This document shows, piece after piece, positions 18,528 to 19,255 of a stretch of DNA of 25,353 nt (its first letter is position 1; each line of letters opens with the position of its first letter). The notes beneath the pieces were generated by a model. That model saw nothing but the letters and a program-made list of their open reading frames with translations. It searched no databases and had not been told where the DNA came from. The stretch is taken from positions 1 through 25,353 of IMG/VR virus record IMGVR_UViG_3300006790_001387. One strand, written 5' to 3'. A program made the position numbers and the translations under genes. This stretch comes from a virus.

Positions 18528-19255
18528 CGCTGCACCACCTCGGCGCCGCCGTTGCTCAACCACTGGCAGAGCTGCCGCCACTGGTGCGTCGACATCTGCG
18601 ACGGGCGCGGCCGGTCGTGCGCTTCGCACCACGTCGCGACCTGCTCGTACTCGACGCCAGACTCACCGAGTCGGGCTTGCCATGCGCGCCACGCCTTCGA
18701 TTTGGTATCAATCGGGGCGCCCTGCTCGGCCGATTGGTCCCCATTCGACGCCGGCGGCGATGCGTTTGGTACCTTTCTGGCAGCTGGGCGGCTGGATTGG
18801 TCCCTATTCGGTGGCGAGCTCGACCGATTAGTGCCCGGTCGGCTCGATTTGCTACCAACGTCCTCACCGTCCACGTCGTCACCGGCGGCGCAGCCGAGGA
18901 GGTGCATTCTTACGTATCTATGGGCATAGGTCACGACCGAGCCAAGGGCCTGACTGGGCGTGATGCCGCGGGACTGGCCGAGCGGCATGAGCAGCACGCC
19001 GGACTCCCACTGACCCGACGCATGACGCAGCGTCCAGGCGACGCCGGCGCGGTTGTCCTCGGCCACCGGTGCGCAGGTGAGTGAAAGGCCATGCGCGCCC
19101 AGGTGCGGACGGGTCGCCCGGATGACCGACTCCAGCGTGGCGTACCTGTTCCGCAGGTGCGGGTTCTGGCGGTCCTTCTCGGCCGACCGGATGGCCGCTT
19201 GTGCCTTCGACAGGGCGGCCCCGAGCTCGGCCTGCTCGTCGCTGCGCTCAATCAT
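18515..19255 (-). CDS. erf: ERF-family single-strand annealing protein (recombinase)
   Basis: ERF-type proteins anneal complementary single strands and act with a partner exonuclease in phage recombination and genome circularisation. The start is ATG 19255 (MIERSDEQAEL), overlapping the exonuclease stop as ATGA, giving 246 residues. The N-terminal domain (about 1-140) carries family features: KAQAAIRSAEKDRQNPHL, RNRYATLESVIRATRPHL, and GITPSQALGSVVTYAHRY followed by acidic DDVDGED. A low-complexity Asn/Ser/Pro/Gln linker (about 138-185) leads to a separate helical C-terminal domain. The linker is also where six DNA repeats lie. Exonuclease and annealing protein are coupled here as a classic pair. 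Confidence 0.82.
   Translation of the reverse strand: MIERSDEQAELGAALSKAQAAIRSAEKDRQNPHLRNRYATLESVIRATRPHLGAHGLSLTCAPVAEDNRAGVAWTLRHASGQWESGVLLMPLGQSRGITPSQALGSVVTYAHRYVRMHLLGCAAGDDVDGEDVGSKSSRPGTNRSSSPPNRDQSSRPAARKVPNASPPASNGDQSAEQGAPIDTKSKAWRAWQARLGESGVEYEQVATWCEAHDRPRPSQMSTHQWRQLCQWLSNGGAEVVQRWKP
18699..18860. repeat. Six iterons at helical spacing inside the annealing-protein gene
   Basis: Six related elements, with core TTGGT followed by A/C-rich bases on the plus strand, start their cores at 18702, 18735, 18767, 18797, 18828 and 18849. On the coding strand they read roughly G-G-N-A-C-C-A-A-T/A-C-G. Two 16-base copies (18733-18748 and 18795-18810) differ at one base; the others are degenerate. 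Spacings are 33, 32, 30, 31 and 21, about three turns of helix each, then two. The reading frame of the core differs between copies (DQS, VPN, DTK), so the similarity is at DNA level and not a protein repeat. An origin or operator is the likely role. Confidence 0.6.

Follow-up and report, generated by a model that had tools for sequence, protein, structure and literature searches.

In phages, iteron arrays inside genes are known already from initiator genes: in lambda O, P22 18 and phage L 18 the iterons lie inside the gene of the initiator (PMC8022706). A different arrangement has been described for SaPI Rep and SCCmec Cch2, whose C-terminal domains bind iterons located immediately behind the gene of the helicase (PMC7581432).

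The window analyzed here is a linear virus sequence of 25,353 bases, possibly an incomplete record, with a G+C content of 67-68%. A late gene block runs rightward from a terminase-like gene; it is accompanied by a leftward operon (17753-20249), to which the erf gene belongs, and by a rightward early block, from 20333 on, encoding a primase, a VapE helicase and a RusA-like resolvase. Phage P4, which has an initiator of the primase-helicase type, carries two separate repeat regions, ori and crr, with the same iteron in both. In our window there are two repeat regions too, but their sequences differ.

The first of these regions, an array in the linker of erf, is similar to the oriLambda type (lambda O, P22 18, phage L 18) in that short imperfect direct repeats are situated in a coding linker and fall in several codon phases. 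Unlike the oriLambda type, the host gene codes for an ERF annealing protein rather than an initiator, and this phage has a second, better origin candidate. That candidate is similar to the SaPI Rep and SCCmec Cch2 origins: repeats around AT-rich DNA directly follow the gene of a VapE/PriRep1-like helicase whose C-terminal part is a winged helix, whereas the erf array lies elsewhere and has no repeat sequence in common with that site. An array in an annealing-protein gene, with the likely origin elsewhere, would be a new placement, perhaps a link in the control of recombination and replication.

Six phased sites in the linker of erf

The array consists of six 17-bp sites (Table 1). Distances between anchors are 32, 32, 31, 31 and 21 bp, or 3.05, 3.05, 2.95, 2.95 and 2.00 turns at 10.5 bp per turn. 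The earlier note had placed six TTGGT cores at spacings of 33, 32, 30, 31 and 21 bases, close to whole helical turns, in different codon phases. All six elements are present, in all three codon phases, and their spacings are nearer to whole turns than claimed; the positions given for the second and third cores (18735 and 18767) were off by one, and only sites 1 to 4 have the exact TTGGT, the fifth core being TTAGT and the sixth TTGCT. The consensus is about GATTTGGTACCNATTCG, with a partial dyad, and the opposite strand also scores at three sites. A seventh site, at 18911, was dropped with a score of only 4.7 bits.

Table 1. Coordinates of the array sites and of associated features in the window
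Feature	Coordinates	Strand	Remarks
Site 1, TCGATTTGGTATCAATC	18697..18713	+	anchor 18702; 21.7 bits; leave-one-out rank 4
Site 2, GCCGATTGGTCCCCATT	18729..18745	+	anchor 18734; leave-one-out rank 5
Site 3, TGCGTTTGGTACCTTTC	18761..18777	+	anchor 18766; leave-one-out rank 9
Site 4, CTGGATTGGTCCCTATT	18792..18808	+	anchor 18797; leave-one-out rank 8
Site 5, ACCGATTAGTGCCCGGT, weakest copy	18823..18839	+	anchor 18828; leave-one-out rank 184
Site 6, TCGATTTGCTACCAACG	18844..18860	+	anchor 18849; leave-one-out rank 11
AT-rich 30-mer adjoining the array, tentative candidate part of the element	18899..18928		17/30 A+T; rare codons GTA and, twice, AGA
erf, ERF-family single-strand annealing protein, 246 aa	18515..19255	-	PF04404 E 4.9e-22; PHROG Erf-like
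Three-HTH DNA-binding protein, end of erf operon, putative candidate binder of the array	17753..18208	-	HTH_23 E 5e-5; phrog_664 DNA binding protein E 1.6e-9
vapE, helicase of SaPI PriRep1 type with C-terminal winged helix (residues about 334-400)	22839..24041	+	PF05272 E 1.6e-74; 7pds; model
Predicted replication origin, GGCAC/GTGCC repeats around the AT-richest 30-mer	24042..24257		repeat count; A+T scan

An unsupervised composition-weighted motif search returned exactly these six sites (107.3 bits, width 14), a score reached neither by any of 2000 synonymous permutations of the linker (mean 86.2, maximum 106.5 bits) nor by any of 2000 codon-order shuffles (mean 78.8, maximum 94.4 bits). The composition-weighted statistic was adopted after a weak first, unweighted one; plain match counting gives only a modest excess, with z of 2-4 against synonymous nulls. 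As a direct-repeat window the array is the strongest of the record (first of 376, z 8.4). When each site was left out in turn, five of the six ranked between 4 and 11 among 50,674 positions, with site 5 being weak; apart from this test, the matrix was built from the very six sites that it scored. The genome-wide motif search showed the sites to be clustered: matches outside the array are at the chance level for the matrix, and the best of them, at 4380, has 14.7 bits, a score that by a log-odds estimate some two positions would reach by chance in a record this long.

Helical phasing was reached by none of the 2000 codon-order shuffles; it was kept in 656 of 2000 synonymous permutations, because the location of the sites is already fixed by the first two codon positions and by the amino acids. 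The synonymous excess and the phasing are therefore best read as two parts of one signal, and the protein sequence of the linker itself appears to be bent to fit the DNA sites.

Codons in the cores are ones that this phage seldom uses (z -5.1, GC3 0.53), while flank codons between the cores are ordinary (z +1.4, GC3 0.83); of all 60-codon windows in the record, the one at 18768-18945 has the rarest codons (z -4.0). Rare codons restricted to the cores, together with the outcome of both nulls, bear out the earlier proposal that the constraint acts on DNA. Within the 31-bp unit, likeness among the copies is focused on about 17 adjoining columns (58/2000), and the spacers are near random. The array, the constraint on its DNA, its phasing and its uniqueness in the record are demonstrated for one genome.

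Other signals in the region were considered as well. The transcript of the array region gave a fold z of -0.7, and RNA structure was discarded; the same was done with DnaA boxes, for which a single weak match was seen, far from the array. No sigma-70 promoter matched in the array region. GC skew, another feature suggested for checking, tracks gene strand and is uninformative.

Related loci and the region behind vapE

The host gene is of ERF type, as had been proposed: its PF04404 domain scores 79 bits against a gathering cut-off of 25. Domain and PHROG searches with its product gave no O-like or DnaD match. Single-protein queries with erf, exonuclease, vapE and HTH protein returned no close relatives in viral contigs (nor, for erf, in genomes), and blastn of the array region against phages produced no match. 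Alignment searches of viral contigs yielded 80 distant Erf loci and as many VapE loci; a further 80 VapE loci came from bacterial genomes.

A comparable array was found in none of 87 other erf genes (the 80 Erf loci plus seven annotated phages); the next-best repeat window in an erf gene reached z 5.4, compared with 8.4 here, and was made of codon-like repeats. In the nearest relative with both erf and vapE (L153), which also holds a primase, repeats stand behind vapE and the erf linker is short, with no array, whereas in this phage the linker is long and disordered. Three annotated vapE phages (L150-L152) have no strong array of this kind. A pattern scan of viral contigs with the array motif gave 58 matches, mostly coding repeats; one putative carrier (L142) was rejected as having two chance matches, and another match (L136) turned out to have its iterons in an O-like initiator gene and no vapE.

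L136 itself comes from a GC-rich phage, and at 160-400 its O-like replication initiator gene carries palindromic iterons of ATTGGTCCC type at spacings of 33 and 22 bp. The repeat scan used for erf also detected arrays at 22-23 bp spacing in other genes of three phages (L083, L020 and L051), genes that match PHROG replication initiation families. The arrays that other phages carry in O-like initiator genes have linker position, spacing of 22-33 bp and shifting codon phase in common. Judging by this comparison and by lambda, P22 and phage L, intragenic linker arrays are normally origins in initiator genes.

The closest solved structure to VapE is 7pds, PriRep1 with dsDNA (4.5e-38 by sequence, 1.7e-12 by fold), and the VapE C-terminus is modeled as a winged helix. 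The phage itself has no initiator of the O-like kind, and sequence and model make this helicase its candidate initiator. Behind its gene we observed GGCAC at 24045, 24054 and 24063 and GTGCC at 24114, 24123, 24180, 24192 and 24245; eight such repeats in 220 bases, against an average of 1.25, is the maximum of the record, and several are 9 bp apart. The AT-richest 30-mer of the record (24141-24170, 22/30 A+T) lies among them. A search for a repeat shared between this site and the erf array scored at background.

For 60 relatives with DNA available behind vapE, repeats there had z of at least 4 in 16 cases and ranked first in their own locus in 13. Nearly all of the closest relatives (L153, L154, L155, L254, L257, L237, L238 and L156) carry short repeats at this place, often exactly 9 bp apart and mostly with AT-rich DNA, their sequence varying from phage to phage; among more distant Pseudomonas loci such repeats were not seen. 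Since VapE is SaPI-Rep-like and repeats and AT-rich DNA are found behind its gene, as in most of the nearest relatives, we predict that the main origin of the phage most likely lies there. By this comparison the origin position, directly behind vapE, would be predictable across a broad range of phages and prophages.

A cluster of very rare codons is present within vapE at 23302-23359, just before Walker A; with z -6.1 over 20 codons it is the strongest of the record.

Possible roles of the array

The explanation that we favor, tentatively, is that a DNA-binding protein of the phage, which may be the three-HTH protein, docks cooperatively on the array, and that the array serves in accessory control or as a second origin. 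The six sites would have been kept, inside the disordered linker, by selection on DNA. The protein occupying them side by side would be a DNA-binding protein of the phage, and the most plausible one is the three-HTH protein, whose gene lies two genes downstream of erf in its operon; the bound proteins, sharing one face of the helix, would build a nucleoprotein complex that may control the erf operon or serve as an auxiliary replication start. With the main origin probably located behind vapE, an accessory role of this complex is the most likely one. Binder, cooperativity and role are what we infer here for the array. The three-HTH protein is the natural candidate binder, with three tri-helical units in its low-confidence model (pLDDT 58); further candidates are the RHH and HTH proteins encoded in the rightward block, and a small protein encoded at 20548-20712 has a weak RHH_1 match (E 0.06).

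A classical operator role of the array is without direct support, as no further site of the array family was found at the divergent early control region. The gap that separates the divergent early operons (20250-20332) contains an inverted repeat, GTCAAGC (20262) and GCTTGAC (20280), which is likely to be an operator of the early regulator.

A lambda-type replication origin, be it the main or a second one, is a less probable and in our view rather doubtful reading of the array; an initiator would then bind the six iterons and melt the AT-rich stretch next to them. The earlier note had likened the locus to the lambda origin inside gene O. In anatomy the likeness is fair: several direct iterons sit in a linker with an AT-rich side. 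In lambda O, P22 18 and phage L 18 the initiator gene itself contains the iterons (PMC8022706), and our scan recovered arrays in further phages, within O-like initiator genes. However, erf is not an initiator gene, and the other erf genes compared have no such array. The adjoining AT-rich stretch is moderate, about eleventh best of the record, with 17/30 A+T versus 22/30 behind vapE. As the main origin the array is disfavored by the SaPI-Rep-like helicase and the better candidate directly behind it, at the same place in most of the nearest relatives.

One could speculate further that the phage has two unlike cis elements for replication, one being the SaPI-Rep-like origin behind vapE and the other a phased iteron array in erf, bound by the three-HTH protein, which would couple recombination to replication; we consider this combination improbable.

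Equally poor are the prospects of the array being a functionless relic of linker growth by duplication. The linker is long and disordered here and short in L153, and two array copies 63 bp apart are identical at 15 of 16 bases, which would agree with such an origin. On the other hand, the copies lie in three codon phases and rare codons are confined to the cores; neutral decay of a tandem duplication is disfavored, because the copies resemble each other over one unbroken block, with nearly random sequence separating them. Phased direct sites on one helix face resemble plasmid centromeres, and the possible small RHH protein mentioned above would fit a partition centromere (parS/parC-like) of an extrachromosomal prophage, but its match is weak and the scanned proteins of the record include no ParA-like match and no integrase or other lysogeny gene, so that we regard this as very improbable. 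Both the relic and the centromere are less likely than an accessory control element or second origin.

With respect to the erf product, we observed that its C-terminal domain (18515-18690) recurs in a Sak4-like annealing protein (L226, 6767-7675), again in terminal position, with 44% over 50 residues. By this sequence similarity, the domain seems to be a movable module of different annealing proteins.
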